A stretch of DNA of 41,993 nucleotides from a virus, in the IMG/VR virus record IMGVR_UViG_3300028196_001342, positions 1 to 41,993 of that record. One strand, given 5' to 3'. Every line of letters starts with the position of its first letter. Position 1 is the first letter of the stretch. Below the pieces are notes generated by a model. The model was not told the origin of the DNA. It searched no databases and saw only the letters and a list, made by a program, of their open reading frames with translations. Made by a program: the position numbers and the translations under genes. Shown piece by piece: positions 6,526 through 39,623 of the stretch.

Positions 6526-6681
6526 ATGAAACGCAAATATAAAAAAACTGTAAACAACAGTCGGATGATTGCTGATATAAAATATCAATTGACAAAGACT
6601 TCTGATCCTATAGAGAAAGAAGCACTGCAACAACGATTACATCATTATCAAATGCAATCTAAAAATACTAAATCTGAATAG
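6526..6681 (+). CDS. Small basic hypothetical protein, 51 aa
   Basis: The frame begins MKRKYKKTVNNSRMIADIKY and ends MQSKNTKSE, giving a basic, helical peptide with heptad-like leucines and glutamines. A perfect late motif lies upstream, but no clear Shine-Dalgarno sequence precedes the ATG, which lowers confidence. It ends in a 14-base convergent overlap with the lipase gene. The family is not recognised. Confidence 0.5.
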   Translation: MKRKYKKTVNNSRMIADIKYQLTKTSDPIEKEALQQRLHHYQMQSKNTKSE

Positions 6682-7477
6682 TTTCTGAACCATCTTTATG
6701 TTTTGCAAGATGCTTCACATACTCAGTCATACTATGATCTGAGAAATTATCAATTTTACCTTTTTTGATTCCGCGCCACATACCACGTAACTTGTCTTTG
6801 AACAGTTGCCATCCTGACGGAGTACGAACATTGCCCCATGTGTTTAAGTAATGTTGTTGTCCGTGATGCTTGTACCCCATTACCCATAATGGAACACTAG
6901 TTACTATGTCATTGTTATTCTTCCAGCGATGATGCACAACTGATAGACTATCTACATAAGTTGGCCAACCAACTCTAGGGGAACCGAATGTATATAATTC
7001 TTTAGGATCAAGATTGTCAAGGTTGTGTTTACAACGGCTTGCCATAATAGTAGCCATTGCCGCTCCTAGCGAATGTCCACAAAACCATAACTCTTTATCT
7101 TTGTTCTGTGTTCTTGTGATGTCCTCTCTGACCATAGGCCATAGTTCATCTACTTCTGCTTTGAAGCCTCTGTGTACTCTACTTATTGTTTCTGATTTTA
7201 CTGGATAAGCCTGTAGGTCTGCTTTAAGATCATTGAACTCTGTTGGTTCAGTACCTCTACAAGCAATAACAATATCATGCTTGTTCATAAAGCGATATGT
7301 CTGTGCTCCGTCCAAGTCATAGTATTCAATTGTTGTAAATCCTAGTTGTTTTGCTATCTTTGTAGCATTTTTCTTTTCTAAATACGCTATTTGTGCTAAT
7401 TCGGCAAATAAAAGACTGCGTTCTTTGAAATTTAATGTTACAATAGGTTTAGTTAATTTATTTGTATGTATTTCCAT
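6668..7477 (-). CDS. Class 3 lipase-like alpha/beta hydrolase
   Basis: The protein matches the fungal-type lipase (Lipase_3) fold. It has the oxyanion segment ACRGTEP (72-78), the nucleophile elbow GHSLGAA with Ser136, the TFGSPRVG strand (163-170), a probable catalytic Asp at 190 (NNNDIVTSVP) and His in GYKHHGQQ (201-208). No signal peptide is seen, so it is cytoplasmic, virion-borne or released at lysis. Possible roles are membrane lipid breakdown for lysis, lipid scavenging or a virion enzyme. A minus-strand GGTAAATA late-type motif sits 30 bases upstream, and an AGGAGCGAAAC site precedes the start. Confidence 0.85.
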   Translation of the reverse strand: MEIHTNKLTKPIVTLNFKERSLLFAELAQIAYLEKKNATKIAKQLGFTTIEYYDLDGAQTYRFMNKHDIVIACRGTEPTEFNDLKADLQAYPVKSETISRVHRGFKAEVDELWPMVREDITRTQNKDKELWFCGHSLGAAMATIMASRCKHNLDNLDPKELYTFGSPRVGWPTYVDSLSVVHHRWKNNNDIVTSVPLWVMGYKHHGQQHYLNTWGNVRTPSGWQLFKDKLRGMWRGIKKGKIDNFSDHSMTEYVKHLAKHKDGSETIQI

Positions 7478-7551: not shown

Positions 7552-7824
7552 ATGAAACGCAAAACTAGAAGCCTATTAGAAGAACTTAATGATTTCGCTG
7601 TAACTAAAAAGACAGAGAATATTGTAGAGTCAAGAGCAAATCATGTAATTGAGAGTGCTATCAACATAGTTGAAATGATACGTACAAACTTTGATGGCGA
7701 AATTGCTCAGGATTTAGAGAAGCGGTTTTATAACTCTATCAAGTCAGGCGATGCAACAAAATTTATGCGAGGCATCAAAAAAATCAAAGCAAGTGATAAA
7801 AGTGAATTAGACGATGTTAATTGA
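7552..7824 (+). CDS. Hypothetical helical protein, 90 aa, possible head protein
   Basis: The protein is soluble and predicted helical, with a basic N-terminus (MKRKTRSLLEELNDFAVTKK). The N-terminal LLE at 8-10 resembles the (L/I)xE site cleaved by T4-type prohead protease, but the fit is weaker than in the next genes. AAGGAG precedes the ATG. It overlaps the next gene by 11 bases, so the two are probably co-translated. I recognise no named family. Confidence 0.78.
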   Translation: MKRKTRSLLEELNDFAVTKKTENIVESRANHVIESAINIVEMIRTNFDGEIAQDLEKRFYNSIKSGDATKFMRGIKKIKASDKSELDDVN

Positions 7825-9049
7825 AGACATTATAAGGCTACAAGAAGCCGAGGGTAAGAATACACATATGGAACACGTTGAGGAAGAAGCACTCAACCGT
7901 GGTAAAGAAGGGGCTGAATATGCAATCAATCAAATGATGTTGTTTGCAGATATGCTTAAAGGCCGTACTAACAAAAAGTTAAGAGTAAGTGTAAAATGGG
8001 ACGGTGCTCCTGCAATTATATGCGGAGTTGATCCTGAGAGTAAAAAATTCTTTGTAGGAACAAAGGGTGTGTTTAATGCTAGTCCTAAACTAGGAACTAG
8101 TCATGAAGAGATTGACAGACTATATGGAGAGTCAGGTGCAGTATCAAAGTTACATCTAGCATATGATTATCTTAGCAAACTAGGAATTACAGGCGTACTA
8201 CAAGGCGACTTTATGTTTGACGATAGTTCACGTCGTGAAGAAGAAATTGACGGCGAAAAGATGTACACTTTCAAACCACAACTTATTACATATGCAGTAC
8301 CAGTAGACAGTGACATTGGTAAGCGTATTGGAAGTGCAAAGTTTGGTATTGTCTTTCATACAAACTACGAAGGCAACACATTAGCAGATGCAACAGCAAA
8401 CTATGATGTTAATGTTAGTAACTTAAAACGTTCAAACGATGTTTGGTTTGACGATGCGTTCTTTAAAGACGTTTCAGGTTCAGTGCTAATGACAAAAGAT
8501 GAAACAGCACAAGTGAAAAAAGATTTAGCAGATGCAATGGGGGCTTATAAAGCAGTACCAAATGCAGTATGGGAAGCAATGAAATCAAATGATGATTTTA
8601 TTAAAAACTTTAAGATTTGGATTAATACAAATATTAGACAAGGTAAACTAGCAGGCGATCCAGGCGAATTTTTAAACGGCTTTATTGATTGGTATAAAGA
8701 AAGAATTGAAGGCGAGATTGCAAAACTTAAGAATCAAGATCCAGAGAAACCAGCAGTTAAAAATAGATTACAAAAGATTGAAAACAATATGAATTTTATT
8801 AATACAAATAGAAAAGGCTTGTCAGGCATTATTATTTTTATGACTGAGATTACAAACCTAAAGAAAATTTTTATTACTAAACTTAACAACATTGAAAGTA
8901 TTGCACACTTTTATAAAACAGCAGATGGCTATGAAGCAGGCTCACCTGAAGGCTATGTAGCAATTGACCATACCGGTGGAGCAGTTAAGATTGTTGACAG
9001 ACTTGAGTTCAGTCGCAGAAACTTTACTACTCCTAAGGACTTTGGTTAA
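7814..9049 (+). CDS. Ligase-like covalent nucleotidyltransferase with capsid-targeting-like N-terminus
   Basis: Motifs of the DNA/RNA ligase and capping-enzyme superfamily are seen in order. Motif I is KWDGAP, with the predicted nucleotidyl-lysine K61. VLQGDFMF (128-135) fits motif IIIa. PEGYVAIDH (378-386) fits motif IV, and AVKIVDR with K392 fits motif V. These enzymes form a lysine-AMP or lysine-GMP intermediate to seal or cap nucleic acid. Length (411 aa) is compatible, though motif III is unclear. The N-terminus MLIEDIIRLQEAEG resembles T4 capsid-targeting peptides, with LQE|A as a possible prohead-protease site, so the enzyme might be packaged. The substrate is unknown. It ends in an ATG overlap (TAATG) with the next gene. 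Confidence 0.68.
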   Translation: MLIEDIIRLQEAEGKNTHMEHVEEEALNRGKEGAEYAINQMMLFADMLKGRTNKKLRVSVKWDGAPAIICGVDPESKKFFVGTKGVFNASPKLGTSHEEIDRLYGESGAVSKLHLAYDYLSKLGITGVLQGDFMFDDSSRREEEIDGEKMYTFKPQLITYAVPVDSDIGKRIGSAKFGIVFHTNYEGNTLADATANYDVNVSNLKRSNDVWFDDAFFKDVSGSVLMTKDETAQVKKDLADAMGAYKAVPNAVWEAMKSNDDFIKNFKIWINTNIRQGKLAGDPGEFLNGFIDWYKERIEGEIAKLKNQDPEKPAVKNRLQKIENNMNFINTNRKGLSGIIIFMTEITNLKKIFITKLNNIESIAHFYKTADGYEAGSPEGYVAIDHTGGAVKIVDRLEFSRRNFTTPKDFG

Positions 9050-18070: not shown

Positions 18071-20452
18071 ATGAACGCATCTAAAGAAGTTTTTATAACC
18101 AAGAGAGACGGAAGTAAAGTAAAGTTAGACTTAGATAAAATTCATTTTGTTGTAGAAGAAGCCTGTGAAGGACTTACAGGTGTATCAGCATCACAAATTG
18201 AAATGAATGCGGATTTACAATTTTACGACGGAATGACAACTGACGAAATCCAAAACATTTTAATTCGAAGTGCAAATGATTTAATATCACTTGAATCACC
18301 TAACTATCAATATGCCGCGGCAAGATTGTTATTATACGGACTTCACAAACAAGTTTACGGAACTTATGAACACATGACTCTTTCTCAAGTTATAGATGCT
18401 AATATTGAGCGAGGCGTTTACGACTCTAACATACGTGACAAATATACTGAAACAGAACTTAAAAAATTAAATACATTTATTAAACACGATCGTAATGAAG
18501 AATTTACATACGCAGGTCTAAGACAAGTAGTAGACAAATACCTTTGTCAAGATAGAAGCAGTGGAGCAATTTATGAAACTCCGCAATTTATGTACATGAT
18601 GATCGCGGCAACGTTGTTTGCTGAATACCCACAGGAGACACGTTTAAACTACGTGAAAAAATATTATGACGCGACCTCACTTTTTAAAGTCAACATACCA
18701 ACCCCTGTCATGGCTGGAGTGCGTACTCCTATTCGTCAGTTTGCCAGTTGTGTTCTTGTTGATGTGGATGATACTCTTCCTAGTATCTTTAGCAGTAATA
18801 GTGCAATCGGTTACTACATTGCTCAAAGGGCAGGGATTGGAATCAATGCGGGACGAGTACGAGCAATCAATTCGAAGATCCGAGGCGGAGAAGTAGCACA
18901 CACAGGTGTAGTTCCGTTCCTAAAAGTTTATGAAGCAACAGTAAGAAGTTGTACACAGAATGGTGTACGTGGTGGTAGTGCAACTACGCACTTCCCACTT
19001 TGGCATTATGAAATTGAAGATATTCTTGTACTAAAAAATAATAAAGGTACAGATGATAATAGAGTACGTAAGTTAGATTATTCTATTCAACTTAACAAAT
19101 TAATGTATGAAAGGTTATTGTCCGGTGGAGACATAACTCTTTTCTCGCCACACGAAGTGCCAGGATTATATGAAGCATTTTATTCAGGCGACAATGAAAA
19201 GTTTAAAGAACTATATGAAATGTATGAACGTAAAACATCTATTCGTAAAAAGAAAATGGATGCACATGAATTATTTTCAGCAGTGTTAAAAGAACGTGCA
19301 GAAACAGGACGTATCTACATTATGAATGTTGATCACTGTAATACACACAGTTCATTTAAAGATCCTATTTACATGAGTAACTTATGTCAAGAGATTACAT
19401 TGCCTACTAAACCTATTCAGCATATTGATGATGCTGAAGGCGAAATTGCATTATGTATTTTAAGTGCGATTAATATAGGTGCATTAACATTAAACAAAGA
19501 AAATTCAGAACTTGAAGAACTGTGTGAGTTGTCCGTTCGAGCATTAGAGGAAATTATTGAGTATCAAGGATATCCTGTAAAAGCCGCTGAGATCAGCACA
19601 AAGGCTCGACGCTCATTAGGTATTGGTTATATCGGCCTAGCACATTACCTAGCAAAACACAAAGTCAACTATGCCGATAAAGAAGCATGGAAACTTGTAC
19701 ATGATTTAACAGAAAGTTTCCAATACTATTTGCTCAAAGCAAGTAACAAACTTGCCAAAGAGCGAGGTGCTTGTGAATACTTTAATAGAACAAAATATAG
19801 TGATGGTATTTTACCTGTTGACACATACAAGCAAGAAGTTGACGAAATCGTCGGAAAGAAATTAAACCATGATTGGAAGACTCTTAGATCTAGTATCAAA
19901 CAACACGGGTTACGCCACAGCACATTGTCCGCACAAATGCCTTCGGAGAGCAGTTCCGTTGTGTCGAACGCTACCAACGGTATTGAACCACCTAGAGGAT
20001 ACTTGTCCGTTAAGAAAAGCAAGAAAGGACCTCTTAAGCAGATTGTACCACAGTATAGTCAACTAAAGAACTTTTATACCCTACTATGGGACATGAAAGG
20101 TAACGAAGGTTACATAAATATCGTCGCTGTAATGCAAAAGTTTTTCGACCAAGCCATTAGTGGTAACTGGTCATATAATCCGTTACAGTATGAGAACAAC
20201 GAAGTACCTATGAGTATTATGATGAAAGACATGTTGACAACATATAAGATGGGTTGGAAAACAAGTTACTATCAAAACACTTATGACTTCAAAGGTGCTG
20301 AAGATGATGCTGACCAATTGGAACAACAAGCGGTTGACAACAAAACAAATGGTGCTATAATTAATGGTACAAACGGTCATACAAATGGCCAGAACGGTGA
20401 TACGCAGACAGTTGATCAAGATGATGAAATGTGTGATGCGTGTGCCATTTAA
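18071..20452 (+). CDS. nrdA: Class Ia ribonucleotide reductase, alpha subunit
   Basis: NrdA reduces ribonucleoside diphosphates to deoxy forms. An N-terminal ATP-cone starts at KRDGSKVKLDLDKI. The active site is intact: C227 in RQFASCVLVD, SNLCQEI with the conserved Asn-x-Cys-x-Glu, and the partner cysteine in EIALCILSA. The mobile C-terminal pair is CDACAI. At 793 residues it is somewhat longer than usual. The extra length includes an Asn/Gly/Thr linker (NGTNGHTNGQNGD) before the tail cysteines. It is followed at once by nrdB and a glutaredoxin, a complete deoxynucleotide module as in T4-like phages. Confidence 0.97.
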   Translation: MNASKEVFITKRDGSKVKLDLDKIHFVVEEACEGLTGVSASQIEMNADLQFYDGMTTDEIQNILIRSANDLISLESPNYQYAAARLLLYGLHKQVYGTYEHMTLSQVIDANIERGVYDSNIRDKYTETELKKLNTFIKHDRNEEFTYAGLRQVVDKYLCQDRSSGAIYETPQFMYMMIAATLFAEYPQETRLNYVKKYYDATSLFKVNIPTPVMAGVRTPIRQFASCVLVDVDDTLPSIFSSNSAIGYYIAQRAGIGINAGRVRAINSKIRGGEVAHTGVVPFLKVYEATVRSCTQNGVRGGSATTHFPLWHYEIEDILVLKNNKGTDDNRVRKLDYSIQLNKLMYERLLSGGDITLFSPHEVPGLYEAFYSGDNEKFKELYEMYERKTSIRKKKMDAHELFSAVLKERAETGRIYIMNVDHCNTHSSFKDPIYMSNLCQEITLPTKPIQHIDDAEGEIALCILSAINIGALTLNKENSELEELCELSVRALEEIIEYQGYPVKAAEISTKARRSLGIGYIGLAHYLAKHKVNYADKEAWKLVHDLTESFQYYLLKASNKLAKERGACEYFNRTKYSDGILPVDTYKQEVDEIVGKKLNHDWKTLRSSIKQHGLRHSTLSAQMPSESSSVVSNATNGIEPPRGYLSVKKSKKGPLKQIVPQYSQLKNFYTLLWDMKGNEGYINIVAVMQKFFDQAISGNWSYNPLQYENNEVPMSIMMKDMLTTYKMGWKTSYYQNTYDFKGAEDDADQLEQQAVDNKTNGAIINGTNGHTNGQNGDTQTVDQDDEMCDACAI

Positions 20453-20458
20453 GGATTT

Positions 20459-21592
20459 ATGACGAAGAAGAAGGGTAATACTAAAGCGATGACAAAGACA
20501 GTTTTTAACCGAGAGAAGGTTGATTTTACAAAAGAGCATATGTTCTTCGGAGCAGATCAAAACACACAGAGATATGACATATTCAAATATCCTGAGTACG
20601 ATAAACTTAATCAAACAATGCTTGGTTATTTTTGGAGACCAGAGGAAGTTAGTCTACAAAAAGATAGAGGTGACTATCAGCAACTTCGTGATGAACAAAA
20701 GCATATCTTTACAAGTAATTTAAAATACCAAACACTACTTGATAGTGTACAAGGACGTGGACCATGTCTAAGTTTTTTACCTTACTGTTCAAATCCAGAA
20801 CTAGAAGGTTGTATTATTGCTTGGGACTTTTTTGAAACAATTCACTCACGTTCATATACACACATTGTAAAAAATGTATATGCTAATCCTAGTGAAGTGT
20901 TTGATACTATCCTTGATGATGAAAAAATTATCGAACGTGCAATTAGTGTTACAAAATACTATGACGAGTTTAACGACATTGCAAACAATTACTTTAATAA
21001 AGATCAAGGTAATCTCTATGATGTTAAGAAAGCATTATACAAAGCAATGATGACTGTAAACATTTTAGAAGGTTTACGTTTTTATGTTTCATTTGCATGT
21101 ACGTTTGCATTTGGCGAATTAAAAATGATGGAAGGTAGTGCTAAGATTATTAGTCTTATTGCAAGAGATGAAGCAACACACCTTAACCTAAGTACACACA
21201 TTCTCAAACATTGGGCTAAAGGTGACGATGATCCAGACATGGCTAAAATCGCAGTAGAACTTAAAGATGAAGTTTATGACCTATGGCGTGAATGTGTTGA
21301 GGAAGAAAAGAATTGGGCGAACTACTTATTCAAAGACGGAAGTATGATTGGACTTAATGCTAATCTTCTTCATGCTTATGTTGAGTTTATTGCTAACAAG
21401 AGATTGAAAGCACTAGGACTTGATATGTTATATGATCGTCCATTAAACACTAATCCGCTACCGTGGACACAACATTGGTTGTCAAGTGCAGGACTACAAG
21501 TTGCCCCACAAGAAACAGAAGTTGAAAGTTATATCGTTGGCGGTGTTAAACAAGACATTAACAAAGATACATTTAAGGACTTCAAACTATGA
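20459..21592 (+). CDS. nrdB: Class Ia ribonucleotide reductase, beta subunit
   Basis: NrdB houses the di-iron tyrosyl radical. The segment FFETIHSRSYTHI carries metal ligands E126 and H129 and radical tyrosine Y133. A later EATHLNLSTH segment supplies the second ligand pair. Length (377 aa) is normal. The start lies six bases after the nrdA stop with AAGGA overlapping that stop. Its own stop overlaps the glutaredoxin ATG. Iron dependence may link it to the phage Fe-S genes only indirectly. Confidence 0.97.
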   Translation: MTKKKGNTKAMTKTVFNREKVDFTKEHMFFGADQNTQRYDIFKYPEYDKLNQTMLGYFWRPEEVSLQKDRGDYQQLRDEQKHIFTSNLKYQTLLDSVQGRGPCLSFLPYCSNPELEGCIIAWDFFETIHSRSYTHIVKNVYANPSEVFDTILDDEKIIERAISVTKYYDEFNDIANNYFNKDQGNLYDVKKALYKAMMTVNILEGLRFYVSFACTFAFGELKMMEGSAKIISLIARDEATHLNLSTHILKHWAKGDDDPDMAKIAVELKDEVYDLWRECVEEEKNWANYLFKDGSMIGLNANLLHAYVEFIANKRLKALGLDMLYDRPLNTNPLPWTQHWLSSAGLQVAPQETEVESYIVGGVKQDINKDTFKDFKL

Positions 21593-21840
21593 TCGAAATA
21601 TTCGGAAAGCCAAGTTGCCCGTATTGTGTTAAAGCAGTAAATCTGTGCAAGACAAGACAACTTGAACATACATATAAATCTTTAGGAACTGACTACACTA
21701 GAGAAGAATTAATGGAGTGGTTCCCAACTGCAAGAACTGTACCACAAATCAAAATCAATGGAAAAACTATTGGGGGTTATGATCAACTTGTAAACTACAT
21801 TGATGAAACAGGTTATAACGGAACAGGACACACAATATAA
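21589..21840 (+). CDS. Glutaredoxin
   Basis: This is an 83-residue thioredoxin-fold reductant with active site CPYC (10-13) and the cis-proline segment TVPQIKINGKTIGG. It most likely recycles NrdA, as T4 NrdC does. It overlaps nrdB by four bases (ATGA) and the next gene by one (TAATG), so it belongs to one translationally coupled operon. Confidence 0.94.
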   Translation: MIEIFGKPSCPYCVKAVNLCKTRQLEHTYKSLGTDYTREELMEWFPTARTVPQIKINGKTIGGYDQLVNYIDETGYNGTGHTI

Positions 21841-22151
21841 TGTTAATAGAAGCACCATATAAAGTTGGAGATACAGTTACTTTTAAACTTAACTCCGGCG
21901 AAGAAATTGTAGGTAAACTTACAGAAGAAAATGAAAAGGGTTTTAAGATTAAAACTCCTCTTACACTTGTAATGAATGGACAAGGGTTAGGGTTACAACA
22001 GTTCTTATTTACAGGTGATCCTGACAAAGGTTATTTGTTTAAAAAAGAAAGCATAATGGTTATTACTAAAACTATTAAGCAGTTTGCAGAACTATATCAA
22101 CAACAAACATCGAGCATAGTAACTGCACCACCAAATCTCAAAGTAAAATAA
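21840..22151 (+). CDS. Hypothetical beta-barrel-like small protein, 103 aa
   Basis: The N-terminal half (YKVGDTVTFKLNSGEEIVGK) reads as a small SH3- or Sm-like barrel. The C-terminal half is helical and charged. That fold is a guess from the strand pattern only. The TAATG overlap places it in the nrdA-nrdB-grx operon. No function is recognised. Confidence 0.75.
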   Translation: MLIEAPYKVGDTVTFKLNSGEEIVGKLTEENEKGFKIKTPLTLVMNGQGLGLQQFLFTGDPDKGYLFKKESIMVITKTIKQFAELYQQQTSSIVTAPPNLKVK

Positions 22152-22164
22152 AATAAATACTAGC

Positions 22165-22470
22165 ATGCCAAACGTATGCAGAAAAAATGATCCACTCACA
22201 ACAGGCCATATTTGTGCCGCGACCACTATACTAGACACTCCTGCACAAGGAACAGTATATGCTAACGGTATATTAGTTGCCAGAGAAACAGATCCTACAG
22301 TGGCACACCCATTTCCACCTTCGCCACCTTGTGCACCACATGTTGCTGTAGTAAACAAAGGTTCATTAAATGTTTTTGTTGTTGGATTGCCTGTTGCTAG
22401 AGTTACAGATAGTACTGATGCCGGAGCAATGACTGCTGGCTCACCTAACGTATATGCTAACGGTGTTTAG
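22165..22470 (+). CDS. PAAR-domain protein, baseplate spike tip
   Basis: The 101-residue protein has the PAAR pattern: short strands with spaced His and Cys residues (DPLTTGHICAATT, DPTVAHPFPPSP, PCAPHV) and repeated VxANG turns. PAAR proteins cap the VgrG/gp5-type spike with a metal-bound tip, as gp5.4 does in T4. AATAAATA lies just five bases before the ATG, which would make a nearly leaderless RNA if used. No clear ribosome-binding site is seen. Confidence 0.85.
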   Translation: MPNVCRKNDPLTTGHICAATTILDTPAQGTVYANGILVARETDPTVAHPFPPSPPCAPHVAVVNKGSLNVFVVGLPVARVTDSTDAGAMTAGSPNVYANGV

Positions 22471-22655
22471 GCTCTACCCCAAGCAATAGGAATATCTTTA
22501 TCATCAACTACTAAATCTCTAGTATCTTTATATTGAGCAACCATTATACCTTTACCTTTGCCTTCAGCAATATATTTGCAAGGTATAATTTCTCTTTCTT
22601 TGTGATATCTTTTTAAGTGGTTAGTAATAATTCCACGTGCTTTTACTCCAGCCAT
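22467..22655 (-). CDS. Small hypothetical protein, 62 aa
   Basis: The protein is basic at the N-terminus (MAGVKARGIITNHLKRYHKE) and acidic near the end (KDTRDLVVDDKDI). It is last of four minus-strand genes; its ATG overlaps the upstream stop as TAATG. It ends convergently with the PAAR gene, overlapping by four bases. No family is recognised. Confidence 0.68.
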   Translation of the reverse strand: MAGVKARGIITNHLKRYHKEREIIPCKYIAEGKGKGIMVAQYKDTRDLVVDDKDIPIAWGRA

Positions 22656-22798
22656 TATTTTCCTTGTCCTCTATAAAACTTATGACTACGTTTTTTAGAT
22701 TTGTTCATTGATGAAAACTTGCAACGTGCTTTAGTACCTGCTTGACTTGTTTTCTTAGGTTGTGAAACATGTCCTTCAAAAGATTTATGTATTTTCAT
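22655..22798 (-). CDS. Small very basic protein, 47 aa
   Basis: The frame starts MKIHKSFEGHVSQPKKTSQA and ends KKRSHKFYRGQGK. It is extremely Lys/Arg/Ser-rich, with one cysteine in the middle. AGGAAAGTAAT precedes the ATG, and the stop overlaps the next start as TAATG. Such composition fits an RNA- or DNA-binding mini-protein. Its position next to the tmRNA locus is of interest but gives no function. Confidence 0.65.
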   Translation of the reverse strand: MKIHKSFEGHVSQPKKTSQAGTKARCKFSSMNKSKKRSHKFYRGQGK

Positions 22799-22799
22799 A

Positions 22800-23048
22800 T
22801 TACTTTCCTAACTTTGCTTTTAAGGCCGCTCTTTTCTTTTCTAGTATTGCCGCCTGTCTTATTTTTCTACCTAATGGTAATGATTGTATCATTTCGTATG
22901 TTCCGCCTTTTTTGGCTGTCCATTCTACTCTAACTGATTTACTTTTTGTGCTACCTTGGAAAGAGCGTACTGCTTTCCTATAACTCATTTCTTCTTTAGT
23001 TTCTACATTGTCTCCGTCGTAGAAAGTATATGTTCTCATTTTGGCCAT
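22800..23048 (-). CDS. Basic hypothetical protein, 82 aa
   Basis: It starts MAKMRTYTFYDGDNVETKEE. It has a basic, strand-rich centre (SKSVRVEWTAKKGGTYEMI) and a helical Lys/Ala-rich tail (AAILEKKRAALKAKLGK). Its ATG overlaps the upstream stop as TAATG. No family is recognised. Confidence 0.72.
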   Translation of the reverse strand: MAKMRTYTFYDGDNVETKEEMSYRKAVRSFQGSTKSKSVRVEWTAKKGGTYEMIQSLPLGRKIRQAAILEKKRAALKAKLGK

Positions 23049-23242
23049 TATTCTATCTCCGTTCTTACAATATGTTTTCGTAAGGCTCTAACTAGTTCTT
23101 CAATTTTATCTACTACAGATATCATATCTTTATCTGTAATATATTTTTGTTTTTCTCTTAACTTGTCATAGTCTTTAAGAGGTATAGTTACTGTACTTTG
23201 TTCATTTTCAAATGTTTTATCAACTGATCTATCATCTGTCAT
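23048..23242 (-). CDS. Hypothetical protein, 64 aa, first gene of a minus-strand operon
   Basis: The protein has a TVTIPLKDYDKLREK segment that resembles the beta-strand plus helix start of small DNA-binding antitoxin-like proteins, then a helical tail with ISVVDKIEELVRALRK. That resemblance is weak and I do not claim it. GGAGAG lies before the ATG. It is divergent from the tmRNA promoter about 85 bases away. Confidence 0.7.
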   Translation of the reverse strand: MTDDRSVDKTFENEQSTVTIPLKDYDKLREKQKYITDKDMISVVDKIEELVRALRKHIVRTEIE

Positions 23243-23327
23243 AACTCTCCATTGTTAATATTGAGTATTTTCTTGAGCATTAGTTATTACGTAATAGATG
23301 CACACTAATAGATTCTGAAGAAAAAGG

Positions 23328-23356
23328 TTGACTTTTTGGTTAAAAGATAGTATAAC
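23328..23356 (+). promoter_or_regulatory. Sigma70-like promoter of the tmRNA gene
   Basis: TTGACT (23328-23333), 17 bases, TATAAC (23351-23356). Transcription should start near 23363, just upstream of the acceptor piece. Confidence 0.75.
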
Positions 23357-23363
23357 TATATTA

Positions 23364-23426
23364 TGTAACGTTGAAGCAATTCAAACGCTATTCAGGACCC
23401 CGGGGCGGTACCGGGCGACTCCACCA
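23364..23426 (+). ncRNA. ssrA: tmRNA acceptor piece (permuted ssrA)
   Basis: In permuted ssrA genes the acceptor half comes first. Here the T arm is a perfect 5-bp stem, CCCGG (23399-23403) with CCGGG (23411-23415), around the 7-base loop GGCGGTA. The acceptor strand CGACTCC (23416-23422), discriminator A and an encoded CCA (23424-23426) follow. CGACTCC pairs over seven positions (one G-U) with GGGGTCG at 23456-23462 of the coding piece. CTATT near 23389-23393 can pair with AATAG in the coding piece as part of helix P2. The 5' end is estimated from the promoter. Confidence 0.9.
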
Positions 23427-23455
23427 TAAACACATTTACTGAGTGTGCTTATGAT
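23427..23455 (+). other. Intervening segment of the permuted tmRNA precursor
   Basis: These 29 bases separate the CCA end from the 5' base of the coding piece. They can form a small ACAC/GTGT hairpin. In two-piece tmRNAs this segment is removed by processing enzymes, presumably host RNases here. Confidence 0.75.
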
Positions 23456-23640
23456 GGGGTCGAAATAGGATCGACTGGTAGTTAATAGAGTTAGTGGAGT
23501 TACCCGGATCTAAGCACGGTTATCGCGAAGAAAACTTATAATTGCAAATGACAATTATGCGCCAGAAATGGCATTAGCGGCCTAGTTTAGGCACGTAGGG
23601 GTTGGCAACTTACCTGGCAACAGAAAAGTTGCGTACTATA
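23456..23640 (+). ncRNA. ssrA: tmRNA coding piece with tag ANDNYAPEMALAA
   Basis: It begins with the tmRNA 5' signature GGGGTCGAAATAGGATCGAC. The resume codon GCA at 23544 opens a 13-codon frame, ANDNYAPEMALAA, ending in TAG at 23583-23585. The tag has the usual ANDNYA start and the ALAA end recognised by ClpX and ClpA. Downstream, GCAACTT (23605-23611) pairs with AAGTTGC (23626-23632), consistent with a pseudoknot region. The 3' end is not sharply visible; 23640 is an estimate. Two-piece tmRNAs are typical of alphaproteobacteria, so the gene was probably taken from such a host. Confidence 0.9.
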
Positions 23641-23765
23641 GAGAGCAATATAAATAATAGTGTATATACAAAAGCACCTTTAACTATAACAAAAAGAACA
23701 CAGTATAGAACGGACTCTATCCACGCCGTAGGCGACATTACATTTAAAACAAGTATATTTAAAAG
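23641..23765 (+). other. Unassigned 3' part of the tmRNA transcript
   Basis: Between the visible pseudoknot and the terminator lie about 125 bases with no frame. They contain a TATAAATA at 23649-23656 and a CGCC/GGCG mini-hairpin near 23728-23739. This could be further tmRNA structure, a trimmed 3' trailer or a separate small RNA. Confidence 0.35.
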
Positions 23766-23799
23766 ATAGGAGTGTTGGAAACAATGCTCCTATTCTTTT
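23766..23799 (+). terminator. Terminator of the tmRNA transcript
   Basis: A 12-bp stem (23766-23777 with 23782-23793, two G-U pairs) is closed by a GAAA tetraloop and followed by CTTTT. Confidence 0.88.
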
Positions 23800-23805
23800 A
23801 TCAAC

Positions 23806-23813
23806 GGTAAATA
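23806..23813 (+). promoter_or_regulatory. Late promoter-like motif GGTAAATA
   Basis: It lies 22 bases before the repeat tail fibre ATG, with AAGGAG between them. Confidence 0.4.
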
Positions 23814-23834
23814 CAGTAAGGAGAACCATAAAAT

Positions 23835-26800
23835 ATGTCAGTAAAAGTAATCGATTCATTCCGTATAATGGCCTTTCAAAAAGCCGGGTCTAGCGTAGGG
23901 CAAGTAGTTGCAGACGCAGACAATGACACACTTACGGTAATTGGAGGCCCAGGAGTTAATTTTACTGTTGATTCAAACTCAGATGCTGTTACATTAAGTC
24001 TACAAAGTGCAGAAGATATTGTTGCTAGTGCTATTGGTAGAGTTGAATTACGTGCAGATGATAGTACAGTTAGAATTGTACAAGGTGGTGAGAACTTAGG
24101 TATACTAGGTGACAGTGGAGTAATTAGTACTGCTTCAAATGCTGAAGGTGATATTACTATAAGTGCTAACACTGACCTATCACAATACAACAATGCAACA
24201 TCGGCTTTTATTACTGACGTTAGTGGAGACAATTTAGGCACACTTACTGATGTTAATATAACAAGTATTGCTGACAATGAATTATTACAATATGATACAG
24301 GTACCGGTGCTTGGATCAATCAAACAATTACAGAAGCAGGATTTGCCGCAGTAGCAACTAGTGGTGGATACGGAGATTTAACAGGCAGACCAAACATTAC
24401 ATTTGACGGAGACATGAGTGGTAACACTGGTGGAGCCATTGCCGCAAACGCAAGTACAGTTACACTTACTCTTGACACAATAAACTCCAACGTTGGAACA
24501 TTTAATACTGTAACGGTAAATGCTAAAGGACTAGTTACAAGTGCTGTTAATACTGCATTCGCAACAGTAGCAACGTCAGGTGACTATGCAGACTTAACTA
24601 ATAGACCAAGTCTAGCAGGAACATACAAATGGAACATTGCAGATGATGCTTCTGCAAGTTATCAAGTATCAACAGATTCAACAATACAAATTTTAGGTGC
24701 TAACAGTATTTCAACAAGTGTTAACACAGGTACTGGTGCACTTACTATTACAGGACCTGCTAACGTTTCAGACCTTACAAACGACACAGGATTTATTACT
24801 GCAAGTTCATCAGATACACTAGTAAACAAATCAGGTAACATTACTCAGTGGACAAACAATGCAGGGTATGTTACACTTGCAGATATTCCAAATAACTTTA
24901 CATTGAATGTAGGTGCAGACGATTCAACCATGCGTGACATTAATGCAGGTGAAGGTTTTAAAATACTTGGTGGTACAAATATTACAACAGCAAGTGATGC
25001 TGAAGGCAATATTACAATTACAGGTCCAACATTAACTACATACCAACAAGCAATAGCAACAGCAGGTAACACAGGTACAGGTAGTATTGGTGTAGGCGAT
25101 ACATTTACAGTACTAGGAACAACAGGACAAATTAAAGTTGATGCGGCGGGATTTGCTTTATCAATAAGTTTAGAAAATTTAATTAACACAGATTTAAAAG
25201 GTTCAGTATTTGCAGATGACAGTACATTACTTGTTGACGGTGTAAGTGGATCAATACCTTACAGTGTTTTAAGCGGAGCACCTACAACAGTTAGTTCATT
25301 TACTAACGATAGCAACTTTGTTTCTAGTGGTGCAAACATTACAGAATTTACAAACAATGCAGGTTACGTAACAGCCGACCAAGTAGGATCAACATATAAT
25401 TTCCGTATAGGTGCAGATGATAGTACAATGCGTACAATCAATGCAGGTGAAGATGTTAAAGTTTTAGGCGGAACTGCAATTACAACAGCAAGTGATGCTG
25501 AAGGCAATATTACAATTACAGGTGTAGCACAAGACTTTACTTGGGGTAGTGTTACAGGGACACCGACTACACTTACAGGCTATGGTATCACAGACGCTTA
25601 TACACAAGCACAAGTAGACGTTAAGGTAGCGGCAGTACTAGACAGTGCCCCTGAACAATTAAACACTCTAAATGAATTGGCCGCGGCACTTAATGACGAT
25701 GGAAACTTCGCAACAACAGTTACAAGCAGATTTACAAGTATTGAAAACAACTTGTTTAGCATTGGAGCAGATGACTCTACAATGCGTGTTGTTAAACAAA
25801 GCGAAAACATTAAGATACTTGGAGGAACAAACTTAACAACTTCAAGTGATGCTGAAGGAAACATAACTGTAAACTTTGTCAATCCAGGTTACATTACCTC
25901 AGGTTTAGAAACAGGCAACAATGTAAGTGAACTTGTAAACGATGCAGGGTATATTTCACAACTGTTTGTAACAGGTGATGATAGCACAGTTAGAACAGTA
26001 GTCAAAGACGAAACAATTAAGTTTGCTGGTACAGGTAACATTACAACTACAACCGATGCAGAAGGTAACATTACTATCGACGGTGGCAATGAAGCAATTA
26101 CATTGTTTGGTGATGTAACAGGTACTGGTACAACATCAATAAACGTTTCACTTGCTGACAGTCCTATTGCTCCAGGTACATATAATAGAATTACATTTGA
26201 TACAAAAGGGATTGCACAAAGTGGTACACTAGTTGACTACTTAACTGACGGTTCTAATATTAGTAGATTAACTAATGACGCAGGTTACTTAACAAACGAA
26301 CAAGCAATTAACTTTAATATTGTTGGTGATGATTCAACAGGCTTTAACATGGCTAACCAAGGTACTTTCCAATTTTTAGGTACTAACGGTGTTACGGTTA
26401 CTGCCGCACAAGACCAAACTACACCAACTGTTACTATTGACGGAACAAGTTTCCTACAAGCAAGTGACAATATAAGTGTTCTTACAAATGATTCAGGTTA
26501 CTACAAAGCAGGTGATTCTATACTTGGTAACTTTACTGGTAGTGTGTTTAGTGATAACTCTACTCTAGTACTTGACGGCTTAACAGGACAACTACATGGT
26601 ACACTTAACGGAATACTTAAAGGTGACGTAAGAGGTAGCGTGTTTGCAGATGATTCTACAATGATCATTGATGGCGGTACAGGTAAAGTAGCAACTGCAC
26701 AACTTGATACATATGCAGAAGGATTACATGATTATACAATTACAGGATCATCAAGCGGAAGTTTAACAACAACTACAGGCTTCCAAAAAATGAGTTACAC

Positions 26801-27122
26801 TAAAATAGGAAACCGTTGTTTCATTAGTGGTAAACTACAAACGTCAAACGGACAGGCATTACCATCAGGTGATATAAGAATTAGTCTTCCATTTGCATGT
26901 GCTGACTTAACTGATCAAGGCGGACAAACAGGATTTCCAATTATGCTGTATAACGTATCTGGATTTAGTGGAGGTGTTACAGTACATGCTCAAATTGAAG
27001 AAAGTAATTCATTCTTTACTATTGTCACAGTAGACGCTAACGGAACGGACAGTACACAATCTTTTAGTGATATCTCCAATAGTGGTATGGAAATTTTAAT
27101 TAACGGCCACTATCCCGTATAA
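23835..27122 (+). CDS. Repeat-rich tail fibre protein, 1095 aa
   Basis: The chain is built from imperfect repeats of about 40 residues centred on GADDSTMRxxxxGExxKxLGG and xITTASDAEGNITITG. At least six clear copies occur, alternating with linkers of the type NNAGYVT or NDSGY and with shorter GSVFADDST units. A non-repeated beta-rich domain forms the last 130 residues (from about GLHDYTITGS). It is almost free of cysteine. Such modular Thr/Gly/Asp-rich chains are long tail fibres, with receptor binding expected at the C-terminal head. AAGGAG precedes the ATG. Confidence 0.87.
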   Translation: MSVKVIDSFRIMAFQKAGSSVGQVVADADNDTLTVIGGPGVNFTVDSNSDAVTLSLQSAEDIVASAIGRVELRADDSTVRIVQGGENLGILGDSGVISTASNAEGDITISANTDLSQYNNATSAFITDVSGDNLGTLTDVNITSIADNELLQYDTGTGAWINQTITEAGFAAVATSGGYGDLTGRPNITFDGDMSGNTGGAIAANASTVTLTLDTINSNVGTFNTVTVNAKGLVTSAVNTAFATVATSGDYADLTNRPSLAGTYKWNIADDASASYQVSTDSTIQILGANSISTSVNTGTGALTITGPANVSDLTNDTGFITASSSDTLVNKSGNITQWTNNAGYVTLADIPNNFTLNVGADDSTMRDINAGEGFKILGGTNITTASDAEGNITITGPTLTTYQQAIATAGNTGTGSIGVGDTFTVLGTTGQIKVDAAGFALSISLENLINTDLKGSVFADDSTLLVDGVSGSIPYSVLSGAPTTVSSFTNDSNFVSSGANITEFTNNAGYVTADQVGSTYNFRIGADDSTMRTINAGEDVKVLGGTAITTASDAEGNITITGVAQDFTWGSVTGTPTTLTGYGITDAYTQAQVDVKVAAVLDSAPEQLNTLNELAAALNDDGNFATTVTSRFTSIENNLFSIGADDSTMRVVKQSENIKILGGTNLTTSSDAEGNITVNFVNPGYITSGLETGNNVSELVNDAGYISQLFVTGDDSTVRTVVKDETIKFAGTGNITTTTDAEGNITIDGGNEAITLFGDVTGTGTTSINVSLADSPIAPGTYNRITFDTKGIAQSGTLVDYLTDGSNISRLTNDAGYLTNEQAINFNIVGDDSTGFNMANQGTFQFLGTNGVTVTAAQDQTTPTVTIDGTSFLQASDNISVLTNDSGYYKAGDSILGNFTGSVFSDNSTLVLDGLTGQLHGTLNGILKGDVRGSVFADDSTMIIDGGTGKVATAQLDTYAEGLHDYTITGSSSGSLTTTTGFQKMSYTKIGNRCFISGKLQTSNGQALPSGDIRISLPFACADLTDQGGQTGFPIMLYNVSGFSGGVTVHAQIEESNSFFTIVTVDANGTDSTQSFSDISNSGMEILINGHYPV

Positions 27123-27128
27123 TAAATA
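27121..27128 (+). promoter_or_regulatory. Late promoter-like motif AATAAATA
   Basis: The motif overlaps the tail-fibre stop codon and precedes the gene at 27182 by about 55 bases. Confidence 0.4.
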
Positions 27129-27181
27129 CACATACACTAAGGCAACTTAGGCACAAAGGCATATAAAAGGAGAATCAAGGC

Positions 27182-27670
27182 ATGAAAGCAAATCTATCTT
27201 CGTCCAATCTGGACAATAAATCCAATTACGAACACAAAGTGGTAAAATTGGTAAAATCTACAATTGACAAAACCTCTGAAGCAGTGTATTATAATACTAA
27301 TACTGGTAAAACTGGTATTATTAAAACTAATGGCTCAAGGAGGCAAAACACAATGGCTAAAAGTATAGAGGTACTTGAAAACATCAAGACGATCTGCCGC
27401 AATGAATGGGGCAACGAATCGGTGTATGAAGGACCGTCAGGCAAATATAAATGGGAAGTAGGCAGAGACACAGGCAATGGTATAATCAACGGCGTTGTAC
27501 GTAAATTTGTTGCAGAAGACAAAGACGGCAATGAGATTTACACAGTAGCAGGTAGTTTCAAAATCAATAACGACGGTGAAGTATCACGTTGGACAGGGTT
27601 ACCGAGACGATTCCAAAAAGAAGCAAGTGAACTAGCAAAATTAACAAACGGTCATACTAACGGAGACTAA
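27182..27670 (+). CDS. Hypothetical protein with two possible starts, 162 or 105 aa
   Basis: The ATG at 27182 follows AAGGAG at nine bases. A second in-frame ATG at 27353 follows a stronger AAGGAGG at eight bases and gives the 105-residue protein MAKSIEVLENIKTICRNEWG. The first 57 residues are Asn/Ser/Thr-rich and low complexity, while the rest is a compact domain (SGKYKWEVGRDTGNGIING, DKDGNEIYTVAGSFKI). The short form may be the core protein and the long form an isoform. No function is recognised. Confidence 0.72.
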   Translation: MKANLSSSNLDNKSNYEHKVVKLVKSTIDKTSEAVYYNTNTGKTGIIKTNGSRRQNTMAKSIEVLENIKTICRNEWGNESVYEGPSGKYKWEVGRDTGNGIINGVVRKFVAEDKDGNEIYTVAGSFKINNDGEVSRWTGLPRRFQKEASELAKLTNGHTNGD

Positions 27671-32518: not shown

Positions 32519-32911
32519 ATGCCAAATAAAATAAACTTGATCACACCGCCCGATAACTTATACAACAACAACTTTTCTTTAAATCTAATCAATACTACAG
32601 ATGCTGAAAAAGAAAAGATTAGTAACTACTTGGGCAAACAAAAAGATGATAGAGAAATAAACTTGTATGCATATACAAATGAAAGTAATCCTACTTGGTT
32701 ACTTAACAGAGTAAATGGTGAAATTAAAACCTATATTAATCTTGACAATACCAGTGATATTAGTGTACAATATACTAGTTACATATTAAGTAAGAGTAAC
32801 GTTTACTACTACACAGAGGATAAAAATATGAAAGAAGTTTACAGTCTGATTAGTACAAACAATGTAACTGGCATCAATAATTTTTTAGATAAGGTATACA
32901 ATGAGCAATAA
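32519..32911 (+). CDS. Hypothetical protein, 130 aa
   Basis: It is Asn/Tyr/Ser-rich with a mixed fold and begins MPNKINLITPPDNLYNNNFS. The ATG lies one base after the previous stop, and the end overlaps the clpX ATG by 11 bases. Coupling to ClpX could reflect a shared task, but only order supports that. Confidence 0.75.
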   Translation: MPNKINLITPPDNLYNNNFSLNLINTTDAEKEKISNYLGKQKDDREINLYAYTNESNPTWLLNRVNGEIKTYINLDNTSDISVQYTSYILSKSNVYYYTEDKNMKEVYSLISTNNVTGINNFLDKVYNEQ

Positions 32912-34154
32912 ACAACAAGATCACCACTGTCACTTTTGTGGCAAAGATAAAAAAGAAGTAACCAAATTGATTGTCGGTGACGACAGTGCAATTTGTAATG
33001 AATGTATTGATTTATGTGTAACTATTTTAACTAAAGAAAAAGTCAAAAGTATTCATACTAAGAAAGAAGCATTTGATACAACTAAACTTAATCCAAAAAT
33101 GATTAAAGAGTATCTTGATCAACATGTAATTGGACAGGAACAAACAAAGTTAGCAATGAGTGTTGCAGTAGCACAACACTACAAAAAATTAAACAATCCA
33201 AGTGATGATATTAAATTAGATAAAACTAACGTAATGGTTATGGGTCCAACAGGATCAGGTAAAACATTAATTGCACAAACTATTGCAGACTTCCTTAATG
33301 TACCGTTTGCTATTTGTGATGCTACAACACTTACAGAAGCAGGATACGTTGGTGATGATGTAGAAAGTATTATTACTAGGCTAGTAACAGAAGCAGATGG
33401 AAACATTGAACTAGCACAACGTGGTATTGTGTTTGTAGATGAAATTGATAAAATTACAAAAAAATCACAAAACGTTTCAGTTACAAGAGATGTTAGTGGA
33501 GAAGGTGTACAACAAGGTCTTTTAAAGATTATTGAAGGAACTAAAGTTAGAGTTAATGCAGGACAAAACAAACGTAAGCATCCAGGTGCTGAAATGGTAG
33601 ACATTGATACAACAGATATATTATTTGTAGTTGGTGGTGCATTTGTTGGATTGGATAAACTACTATCAGAACGTACAAATCAAAACGGAATGGGTTTTGG
33701 TGCAGACATACAAGATCCAAATGCAGAAGCAGACTTATCACAAATACTTCCAGAAGACTTAATCAAGTACGGTTTCATTCCAGAGTTTATTGGTCGTTTT
33801 GGCTTAATTACATACGTAAATCAGTTGACACAAGAGCAACTATGTAGTATTATTAAAGAGCCTAAGAACAGTTTAGTAAAACAATATAGTTATTTGTTTG
33901 GACTAGACAATATAAACTTAGAGTTCACTGATGGAGCAATTAAAGCGATTGCTTCCAAAGCACAAGAACTTAAGACAGGTGCTCGTGGACTTAAAAAGAT
34001 TATAGAAGAGGCATTGTTACAGTATCAATATGACGCTGAAGATTTAGCGGCAGAAGGTTTGGAGACTATAACGATACAAGAAGAAACGATAACTAATAGC
34101 GACACACCGTTACTGGTATATAGAAACAAAAGGACAAATGGCAAAAAACATTAA
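32901..34154 (+). CDS. clpX: ATP-dependent unfoldase ClpX
   Basis: ClpX recognises tagged proteins and threads them into ClpP. This 417-residue copy is complete. The N-terminal zinc domain has C10, C13, C32 and C35; Walker A is GPTGSGKT (115-122); Walker B is IVFVDEID (176-183). The pore loop GYVG (148-151) and the RKH loop (225-227), both used to grip ssrA tags, are intact. The ClpP-docking IGF tripeptide reads MGF (264-266), a conservative change. No ClpP gene is in the window, so it would use host ClpP or act alone as an unfoldase. It may serve the phage tmRNA tag. Confidence 0.96.
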   Translation: MSNKQQDHHCHFCGKDKKEVTKLIVGDDSAICNECIDLCVTILTKEKVKSIHTKKEAFDTTKLNPKMIKEYLDQHVIGQEQTKLAMSVAVAQHYKKLNNPSDDIKLDKTNVMVMGPTGSGKTLIAQTIADFLNVPFAICDATTLTEAGYVGDDVESIITRLVTEADGNIELAQRGIVFVDEIDKITKKSQNVSVTRDVSGEGVQQGLLKIIEGTKVRVNAGQNKRKHPGAEMVDIDTTDILFVVGGAFVGLDKLLSERTNQNGMGFGADIQDPNAEADLSQILPEDLIKYGFIPEFIGRFGLITYVNQLTQEQLCSIIKEPKNSLVKQYSYLFGLDNINLEFTDGAIKAIASKAQELKTGARGLKKIIEEALLQYQYDAEDLAAEGLETITIQEETITNSDTPLLVYRNKRTNGKKH

Positions 34155-34404
34155 GGTAAGAACAATGGCACAAGTTAGAGACCCCAACGAAGCGGGCCTG
34201 AGTGTAGTAGTACGTGGCGAAGGTGAACGAGAGTTTATGAAAGCCATGCGTAAGTTTAAACGTAAAGTTGCTGAAAGCGGAATTATTAATGACTTCCGAG
34301 ACAAGCAGTACTATGAAAAACCTAGCGATAAGAAACGCAAGGCTAAGAAGCAGGCAGTACGTAGGCAACAACGTGCATTGTTAGATGAAAAAAACAACTA
34401 CTAA
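34138..34404 (+). CDS. rpsU: Ribosomal protein bS21 homolog
   Basis: The core matches bS21: VVVRGEGEREFMKAMRKFKR, then AESGIINDFRDKQYYEKPSD and the basic tail KKRKAKKQAVRRQQR. These align with the bacterial order R-F-K-R, E-x-x-G-I-x, F-Y-E-K-P and Lys/Arg tail. bS21 sits near the anti-Shine-Dalgarno end of 16S rRNA and influences initiation. At 88 residues it has a 15-20 residue N-terminal extension over many host forms. The ATG at 34138 has AAAGGA upstream; a later ATG at 34165 would remove the extension. It overlaps clpX by 17 bases. Confidence 0.93.
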   Translation: MAKNIKVRTMAQVRDPNEAGLSVVVRGEGEREFMKAMRKFKRKVAESGIINDFRDKQYYEKPSDKKRKAKKQAVRRQQRALLDEKNNY

Positions 34405-34416
34405 TAGGCAATAGAA

Positions 34417-34956
34417 ATGGCAACACATGCAATGATAGACCTAGAAACTCTAGGCACTAAACCAGATTGTGTGATACTAACATTAGGCGCAATCAAATTC
34501 GACCCTTTCACTAATGAAGAACCACACAGTGGTCTTTATCAAAAACTTGACATAGACGAGCAAGATAAATTAAAAAGAACACAAGATGAAAGCACTATCG
34601 AATGGTGGGGTAAGCAAACCCAGAGTGTGCAAGAAGAAGCCTTTTCAGAAGAAGGACGTATTAGTTTAGATCAAATGACAAAAGAGATCAACAAGTTTCT
34701 TGTTGGTGTTGATGTAGTATGGGCTCAAGGGCCTGCTTTTGATATTGTTATATTAGAAAATTTATACCAGCAATTAGGATTACCTATACCGTGGAACTTT
34801 TGGCAGATAAGAGATAGTAGAACATTGTTTAGTTTACTATCTAAAGATCCACGTAAAGCAATTCAGCAAGAAGCACACAATGCCTTGGCTGATTGTTACT
34901 ATCAAGCATTATCGGTACAGACCGCATACAAGGAGTTAAACTTAAATGCGAATTGA
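34417..34956 (+). CDS. dexA: DexA-like 3'-5' exonuclease (DEDDh family)
   Basis: The active site is visible: D8 and E10 in MIDLETLG, D109 in GPAFDIVIL, and H154 with D159 in HNALADC. STIEWWGKQ (59-67) is a segment characteristic of T4 DexA and related exonucleases. Length (179 aa) is close to the family. It would degrade single-stranded DNA or RNA from the 3' end, perhaps recycling host nucleic acid. It overlaps the GMP reductase gene by 11 bases. Confidence 0.86.
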   Translation: MATHAMIDLETLGTKPDCVILTLGAIKFDPFTNEEPHSGLYQKLDIDEQDKLKRTQDESTIEWWGKQTQSVQEEAFSEEGRISLDQMTKEINKFLVGVDVVWAQGPAFDIVILENLYQQLGLPIPWNFWQIRDSRTLFSLLSKDPRKAIQQEAHNALADCYYQALSVQTAYKELNLNAN

Positions 34957-39216: not shown

Positions 39217-39623
39217 GCTACTTTTTCGCCTGCATCTATTCTACGCTGGTGTTCTTCAACTGAACCTGGATATCTCCAAGCCCAAATACCTACTAATACC
39301 ATAAAGCCTCCGCTCCATAACACTGCTTTAATGTTACCAGTTGCAAAGAATGTAATTGCTAAGGTAGAAGCCATCATAGCGGCCATTAAGTATTTTCCTT
39401 TTGTAGGAAATACTCTTTTCTTATTCCAGTTAGTTAAAAACTTACCAAACCACGGATGGTTGTATAACCATTTTTCCATTTTTGGTGAACTCTTTGCAAA
39501 TGCCCATGCGGCAATTACAAGGAAGATTGAAAAAGGTATTCCAGGTGTTACTACTCCGATATAGGCTAGACCAACACATAGAAAACCAATTGCTTGATAC
39601 ATATATTTTTTTATTTTATTCAT
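39204..39623 (-). CDS. DUF454 (YbaN-like) membrane protein, 139 aa
   Basis: [20 protein letters not shown], then [20 protein letters not shown] and [13 protein letters not shown], reproduce the order of the DUF454 family: G-x-V-x-P-x-x-P, F-A-x-S-S-P-x-x-x-x-W-L and a short amphipathic helix. The usual TT before the proline loop is degenerate. DUF454 members are inner-membrane proteins of unknown function, found next to heme-related genes in some bacteria. Its stop region overlaps ALA synthase by four bases. Confidence 0.8.

Follow-up and report, generated by a model that had tools for sequence, protein, structure and literature searches.

A probable working two-piece tmRNA of a T4-like marine phage and an exchangeable gene slot in the spacer of its relatives

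The tmRNA and ClpX genes of the window

The window, by which we mean the whole stretch of DNA analyzed here, is a virus record of 41,993 bases (IMGVR_UViG_3300028196_001342). The single gene called by ARAGORN is a permuted tmRNA (tmRNA*) at 23333-23676 with the tag ANDNYAPEMALAA. Two Rfam models match the same region far above their gathering scores: alpha_tmRNA (RF01849) at 23324-23637, with 125.1 bits and an E-value of 7e-34 (gathering score 50), and tmRNA_permuted (RF04321) at 23365-23585, with 114.2 bits (gathering score 47); alpha_tmRNA is the best-scoring model of its Rfam clan for this gene. The first-pass annotation had proposed a permuted two-piece tmRNA in which an acceptor piece with encoded CCA comes first, and both programs agree with it. 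On sequence grounds, an intact alpha-type permuted tmRNA gene at 23364-23640 is confirmed.

All elements of the gene lie on the forward strand. The acceptor piece (23365-23426) starts where the RF04321 match starts and ends with the encoded CCA (23424-23426). Its T arm, CCCGG-GGCGGTA-CCGGG (23399-23415), forms five of five pairs and is followed by the 3' strand of the acceptor stem, CGACTCC (23416-23422), and by ACCA (23423-23426). The spacer, an intervening sequence of 29 nt (23427-23455), consists of stem arms around a short loop and then TGAT. The coding piece (23456-23637), delimited by the end of the Rfam match and by sequence reading, opens with the 5' strand of the acceptor stem, GGGGTCG (23456-23462), which pairs with CGACTCC at all seven positions, including G3:U70 (the alanine pair). 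Both ARAGORN and reading of the sequence place the tag frame ANDNYAPEMALAA with its stop codon TAG at 23544-23585. The pairing across the junction, the perfect T arm and the tag frame had been described in the first-pass annotation, and all three hold.

The acceptor-stem pairing is kept in related phages, as the first-pass annotation had expected of a real gene. Pair 5 covaries: it is present in all 172 unique long-spacer genes (100%, where the make-up of the columns predicts 63%) and in 99% of the 72 unique short-spacer genes (52% expected). G3:U70 is kept in every unique relative (172/172 with long, 16/16 with middle and 72/72 with short spacers), and the T arm covaries at pairs 1-3, with pair 1 formed in 96% of relatives against 41% expected. 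The spacer stem is likewise conserved: 92.7% of its 10 positions are paired in the 172 unique long spacers, 87.6% in 42 rows with one per family and 86.3% in the 72 short spacers, compared to at most 62%, 63% and 54%, respectively, when the register is slid by 1-3 positions. Several pair types are seen at each position, which indicates covariation. Tags are intact in 86 of 104 unique short-spacer relatives and in 160 of 180 unique long-spacer relatives.

Energy folding gives a mixed picture. The precursor of the window folds poorly (acceptor stem p=0.43, T arm and P2 pairs p=0), and its spacer-stem pairs have p of 0.89-1.0 with one mismatch excepted. Five precursors with an ORF in the spacer (L152, L164, L310, L301 and L203) form, with high probability, both the acceptor stem and the greater part of the spacer stem, and a sixth (L311) failed.

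The signals around the gene are less uniform. The promoter-like TTGACT-17-TATAAC (23328-23356, forward strand; TTGACT at 23328, TATAAC at 23351) is kept in most of ten aligned relatives, down to L197, but is absent from the sites of a stricter consensus scan, which found 7 compared to 5.0 in shuffled sequence. The sigma70-like promoter of the first-pass annotation is therefore upheld by conservation and not by consensus. The terminator that was said to close the unit corresponds to a hairpin-like site at 23765-23794 (forward strand), but only one such site was found where 0.6 are expected, and it lies about 125 nt past the tmRNA, beyond TATAAATA at 23649-23656 (forward strand), which we take from sequence reading to be a T4-type late-promoter motif. 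The motif precedes the hairpin, and both lie upstream of a tail-fibre-like gene at 23835; late transcripts would have to pass the hairpin.

The remainder of the window encodes ribonucleotide reductase subunits (18071-20452 and 20459-21592), a gene at 23048-23242 that is 63% identical to the HTVC008M gene adjoining its late-promoter factor, and a DUF6267 protein (7814-9049) whose nearest relative is in Melnitz (41%). When blast was run against phage records, it returned the SsrA of Melnitz and tmRNA stretches, annotated or not, in Ruegeria, Rhodobacter and other phages. T4 gp23 was not found in the window fragment; of 32 records with a tmRNA, 7 have a gp23 match above cut-off, one of these marginally. 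The assignment of the window to a T4-like marine phage is therefore drawn from its relatives. Genes for a ribose-phosphate pyrophosphokinase, a class 3 lipase and an aminotransferase are also present (5489-6445, 6668-7477 and 39620-40810).

A gene at 32901-34154 (forward strand) encodes a full ClpX, the unfoldase that reads ssrA tags; it reaches 496.7 bits with TIGR00382, above the curated equivalog cut-off of 370.75. The zinc finger (PF06689) and the Walker motifs are present, and alignment with solved ClpX shows that GYVG and RKHP are kept and that MGF stands in place of IGF; these correspond to the GYVG pore loop, the RKH loop and the IGF-type loop. Downstream, up to 36682, lie ribosomal protein bS21 (34138-34404, forward strand; PF01165, 1.1e-14; TIGR00030), an Rv2179c-like 3'-5' exoribonuclease (34417-34956, forward strand; PF16473, 4.4e-39), an IMP dehydrogenase and a redoxin, a cluster that resembles a takeover of translation and RNA. 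Across 46 scanned records, ClpX is above cut-off in 9, Phosso included, but not in Melnitz, Mosig or HTVC008M; the ClpX of the window is also encoded in the relatives behind L100 and L152. SmpB was found in none of 32 phage records (window included, many of them fragments) and in 10 of 14 control genomes. The presence of ClpX in the same window strengthens the idea of the first-pass annotation that the phage has an interest in ribosome rescue. It also yields a concrete prediction, namely that phage tmRNA and phage ClpX would form one tag-and-unfold pathway.

Open reading frames in the spacers of relatives

Relatives were collected by pattern scans of IMG/VR, which returned at least 119 stretches with short spacers, 95 with the tag type of the window and, for longer spacers, at least 120 (111-171 nt), 86 (171-231 nt) and 31 (231-291 nt). 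We parsed 422 of 433 loci, which gave 255 unique spacers, 172 of them of at least 90 nt. ORFs were grouped into families by single-linkage clustering of blastp-short matches (F0 is mixed). Two of the samples are blind to spacer length. Among the 95 loci found by their tag, 19 of 84 parsed spacers have at least 100 nt. Among loci found by their coding piece (80 listed of 120), 77 were parsed, with 22 spacers below 60 nt, 23 of 60-99 nt and 32 of at least 100 nt; sense ORFs of at least 24 aa occur in 24 of these 32, 19 with a Shine-Dalgarno-like site, and the other 8 have none.

Where the window has 29 nt, four of its closest aligned relatives (L152, L157, L186 and L131) have 204-205 nt, and this insert can be read as one sense ORF of 62 aa that begins with MEIIWHILLTVCSG. 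Tblastn with the families of spacer-encoded proteins (hereafter cargo) found nothing in the window at 1e-3; the window represents the empty form. Cargo is common elsewhere: ORFs of at least 20 aa are present in 160 of the 172 unique spacers of at least 90 nt (42 groups; 12 spacers have none), and ORFs of at least 28 aa in 138 (31 families), 132 of which start with ATG. ATG combined with a Shine-Dalgarno-like site, by a permissive pattern, is found in 108 of the 138 (24 families, 164 loci), and 14 families of this kind recur on at least two contigs.

The ORFs take up more of the spacer than expected by chance. Their share is 0.76 in sense, 0.49 in antisense and 0.45 in shuffled sequence for the 172 unique spacers, and 0.69, 0.51 and 0.48, respectively, when each family contributes one row (54 rows); in the latter comparison the sense ORF is longer in 40 rows and shorter in 13. 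Ratios of pN/pS also point to purifying selection on the encoded proteins: 0.10-0.51 in F0-F10 and F13, and 0.00 (F16) and 0.07 (F17) with few changes; values of 0.60 (F12) and 0.65 (F14) are higher, and F11 was not computable. In 15 of the 17 families for which this was computed, changes are most frequent at third codon positions.

The position of the start signal follows the distance between CCA and the start codon. ORFs that start 10-16 nt after CCA have a Shine-Dalgarno-like site among the spacer's first 10 nt, which lie inside the 5' arm of the spacer stem, in 25 of 35 cases (11 of 13 families). With a start at 17-25 nt, the early site is found in 1 of 53 and a site nearer the start (-18 to -4) in 48 of 53. 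ORFs starting less than 10 nt after CCA have no Shine-Dalgarno-like site (0/10), and short spacers have the early site in 1 of 67. Family F1, whose called start lies more than 25 nt after CCA, has the early site in 31 spacers. By eye, F1 spacers (L330, L331 and L334) contain a short upstream ORF with a Shine-Dalgarno-like site, which overlaps a membrane-protein-like main ORF in another frame. At the other end, 62 of the 138 ORFs take as their stop codon the UGA within the conserved UGAU junction, 39 terminate in or upstream of the 3' arm, 34 (8 families) run on into the coding piece before they stop, and 3 end elsewhere.

Searches of 12 cargo proteins against Pfam and PHROGs gave convincing matches only to DUF6356 (L201, 3.2e-12) and phrog_419 (L297, 4e-12), and no endonuclease model was matched. 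Neither PDB nor BFVD contains a match at E<=0.001 to the AlphaFold model of F7 (mean pLDDT 85.0), no relative of F2 with a solved structure was found (best E 0.47), and comparison of the F2 and F7 profiles gave no match (probability 4.4%). ARAGORN found no tRNA in 275 spacers of at least 60 nt.

In order to provide a bacterial control we used 289 alphaproteobacterial genomes, of which 270 have a tmRNA match and 263 a match above cut-off. One genome (G001), whose contig matches a virus contig, was set apart, which leaves 262 bacterial tmRNAs (covered as 150 listed matches, 77 of 79 genomes and 35 of 40 genomes above cut-off). Eight of these matches, the ones of at least 290 nt, were read directly. 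Six of the eight have spacers of 103-232 nt, and in none of the six is there an ATG ORF with a Shine-Dalgarno-like site; TTG ORFs of 33 aa in one and of 36 aa in another also have no such site. The exact phage pattern is found with short spacers in 25 of the 289 genomes, and with spacers of 111-171 or 171-231 nt in 0 of 289.

Eight isolate phages of alphaproteobacteria have spacers of 89-410 nt that are not readable as convincing genes. In Rhodobacter and Ruegeria phages (L475, L474 and L472), serial ...CTCACCA-hairpin-TTGGTGG... units upstream of the tmRNA resemble permuted tRNA-like RNAs. In Phosso (L479, 298-706), the 410-nt stretch between the tmRNA pieces appears by eye to hold two hairpins around a short unit that is complementary enough to pair with each of the two acceptor strands. 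Contig PBPT01000016.1 (L205), which has 335 kb and was binned as Neomarinimicrobiota, contains a permuted tmRNA with the phage-type tag seen here and is perhaps a jumbo-phage contig.

Exchange of cassettes and comparison with known systems

Comparisons of spacers with their surroundings show exchange. The window and L152 agree at 94% over the 600 nt upstream, 100% in the acceptor piece, 99% in the coding piece and 93% downstream, with spacers of 29 and 205 nt, respectively. L152 and L173, in turn, share a spacer that is nearly 100% identical over 205 nt, with 81% identity in both tmRNA pieces and adjoining 600-nt flanks that cannot be aligned. Blastn shows the tmRNA with its cargo (about -75 to +330 from CCA) as an aligned block between otherwise different phages; two of the five pairs compared also have some weak matches (70-74%) at distances of kilobases, and one pair has longer stretches in common. 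When all families are taken together, both flanks are unrelated in 76 of the 258 pairs whose spacers are at least 93% alike; these pairs come nearly all from F2 (44/52) and F0 (21/45), with 0/56 in F1 and 0/16 in F6.

Two-piece tmRNAs have been reported in phages before, and what we describe as a cargo slot goes beyond them. The available text of PMC9004378 reports them in Melnitz, a phage of Methylophilales, and Mosig, a phage of Pelagibacter, and states that 53 of 133 unique phage tmRNA structures found by ARAGORN are two-piece, marine or aquatic phages accounting for 50 of the 53; excerpts of PMC11915505 catalogue 79 unique phage tmRNAs. Melnitz and Mosig resemble the window in carrying an alpha-type permuted ssrA on marine T4-like phages (PMC9004378, in the part available). 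They differ in that they have no ClpX match, and in that the account of them, as far as the same text extends, mentions no spacer ORF and ties ssrA to a glutamine riboswitch. The genome of Melnitz has the CCA-spacer-GGGG layout of the window, with a 142-nt spacer that includes a Shine-Dalgarno-like site and an ORF of 54 codons lying within the annotated tmRNA feature. No riboswitch family was matched by Rfam at 20500-27500 of the window; a lax search of this interval gave no other family at E<1 and only a chance microRNA match (E 4.6).

Compared with the two-piece tmRNAs of alphaproteobacteria (RF01849, RF04321), the permuted order, the acceptor stem, the T loop and the tag ending are the same, and the difference lies in the long spacers, the six bacterial ones lacking an ATG ORF with a Shine-Dalgarno-like site. 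The direct capture from an alphaproteobacterium claimed by the first-pass annotation may be correct, given that the alpha model is the best of its clan and given the available part of PMC9004378. The tag is of no use as a donor marker: its DNA pattern occurs in two genome-contig records, one of which is also a virus contig (L164), and thus points to no host.

Odd intervening sequences of permuted tmRNAs, a tRNA-Ala gene and a repetitive element, are described in the accessible portion of PMC11915505. They show the same tolerance of foreign sequence in the intervening part, but appear there as single cases, and that portion mentions no contents that code for protein, recur or are exchanged. Group I introns of tmRNA genes that carry homing-endonuclease genes (same source, same portion) also place a protein gene within a removed part of the precursor. 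The window differs in having no intron, and in the phages described here removal would be the work of tRNA-processing enzymes. An intron of this kind finds no support: no other Rfam family appears at E<1 in 20500-27500 of the window, and the 12 cargo proteins scanned match no endonuclease. The Sinorhizobium jumbo phage AP-J-162 combines tmRNA, ClpX and S21 in one phage, but has 471 kb, and in the consulted section of PMC11242549 its ClpX is linked to phage DNA replication and not to tag degradation. In searches of open-licence PMC papers we found no description of ORFs in tmRNA spacers.

A possible role for the spacer and its alternatives

We consider it probable that the alpha-type two-piece tmRNA encoded by this T4-like marine phage is functional, and that its spacer serves in relatives as an exchangeable gene slot. 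A single transcript would fold in such a way that the acceptor stem joins the piece with the CCA to the coding piece, with ACCA opposite UGAU and a spacer stem of 11-12 bp stacked on the acceptor stem. Host RNase P and 3' processing would then cut out the spacer, leaving a two-piece tmRNA that could be charged with alanine. With host SmpB, which is assumed, this RNA would free ribosomes stalled on broken mRNAs during takeover, and the stalled products would receive a tag that ends in ANDNYAPEMALAA. The tagged proteins could then be unfolded by the ClpX that the phage encodes, docked to the ClpP of the host. The cargo is an ORF of some 30-80 aa that lies between the two arms of the spacer stem and in most cases has a ribosome-binding site; it would presumably be expressed from the tmRNA promoter.

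More tentatively, the excised spacer may be, in a large group of marine phages, a dedicated expression slot for small proteins that is fed by recombination and in which translation and RNA processing compete in a self-limiting way. This we regard as possible and rather doubtful. A ribosome starting at the stem-held site would open the spacer stem and delay cleavage, and cleavage would cut the cargo message. For the 34 unique ORFs (8 families) that stop inside the coding piece, cleavage would yield a non-stop message, which the mature tmRNA itself could clear, closing a self-limiting loop.

The spacer ORFs could instead be stray genes of phages, inserted where an ordinary captured host tmRNA happens to tolerate them and unlinked to its processing; we hold this to be somewhat unlikely. 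Ten families (F0, F1, F2, F3, F7, F8, F10, F17, F29 and F38) do have stand-alone homologues elsewhere in phage loci, and tmRNA and cargo often travel as one block of about 300-420 nt. However, the 5' arm bears its Shine-Dalgarno-like site in just those cases in which the start codon is close by, with the opposite arm compensating, and nearly half of the ORFs use the UGA of the junction as their stop. The ends of the F2 proteins argue in the same direction. Of its 31 matches, 14 are inside the spacer, 13 are on the same strand 101-122 nt upstream of CCA and 4 are elsewhere; the copies within the spacer have SL as their last two residues, which the 3' arm encodes, and stand-alone copies have other ends. 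Melnitz has its F2 homologue annotated as a separate gene directly upstream of ssrA, and a different ORF in the spacer.

It is improbable that the phage RNA acts mainly as a decoy titrating host SmpB. Such a decoy has been proposed, according to the part of PMC4131195 available, for the tRNA-like RNA of mycobacteriophage DS6A, and would fit the finding of no SmpB in the 32 phage records; DS6A, however, keeps little beyond the tRNA-like domain, whereas the tag frame and the hydrophobic AA end are retained here. That the gene is a relic or an unexpressed copy, as the weak consensus score of its promoter might suggest, is very improbable: covariation and the intact tags of most relatives lead us to reject it, and together with the full covariance-model matches and the conserved promoter they bear out the view of the first-pass annotation that the gene looks functional. 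Chance ORFs or assembly chimeras are more improbable still, since, although the ORFs are short and 34 of the 172 unique long spacers have none of at least 28 aa, families with start signals recur on separate contigs, sense ORFs exceed antisense and shuffled ones with an excess of third-position changes, and the isolate Melnitz carries a spacer ORF.

Phage two-piece tmRNA has previously been treated as a copied host gene. Under the reading of the spacer as a slot, the part of the precursor that is discarded would be a place for genes with its own start signals, stem and stop, occupied by dozens of small protein families. The slot is emptied or refilled between nearly identical phages, which provides natural pairs with and without cargo for testing the function of small proteins. 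Because gene callers mask RNA genes, as with the Melnitz ORF inside its tmRNA feature, tmRNA spacers are a new place to seek unannotated phage genes, and mutual control of translation and tRNA-type processing becomes testable.
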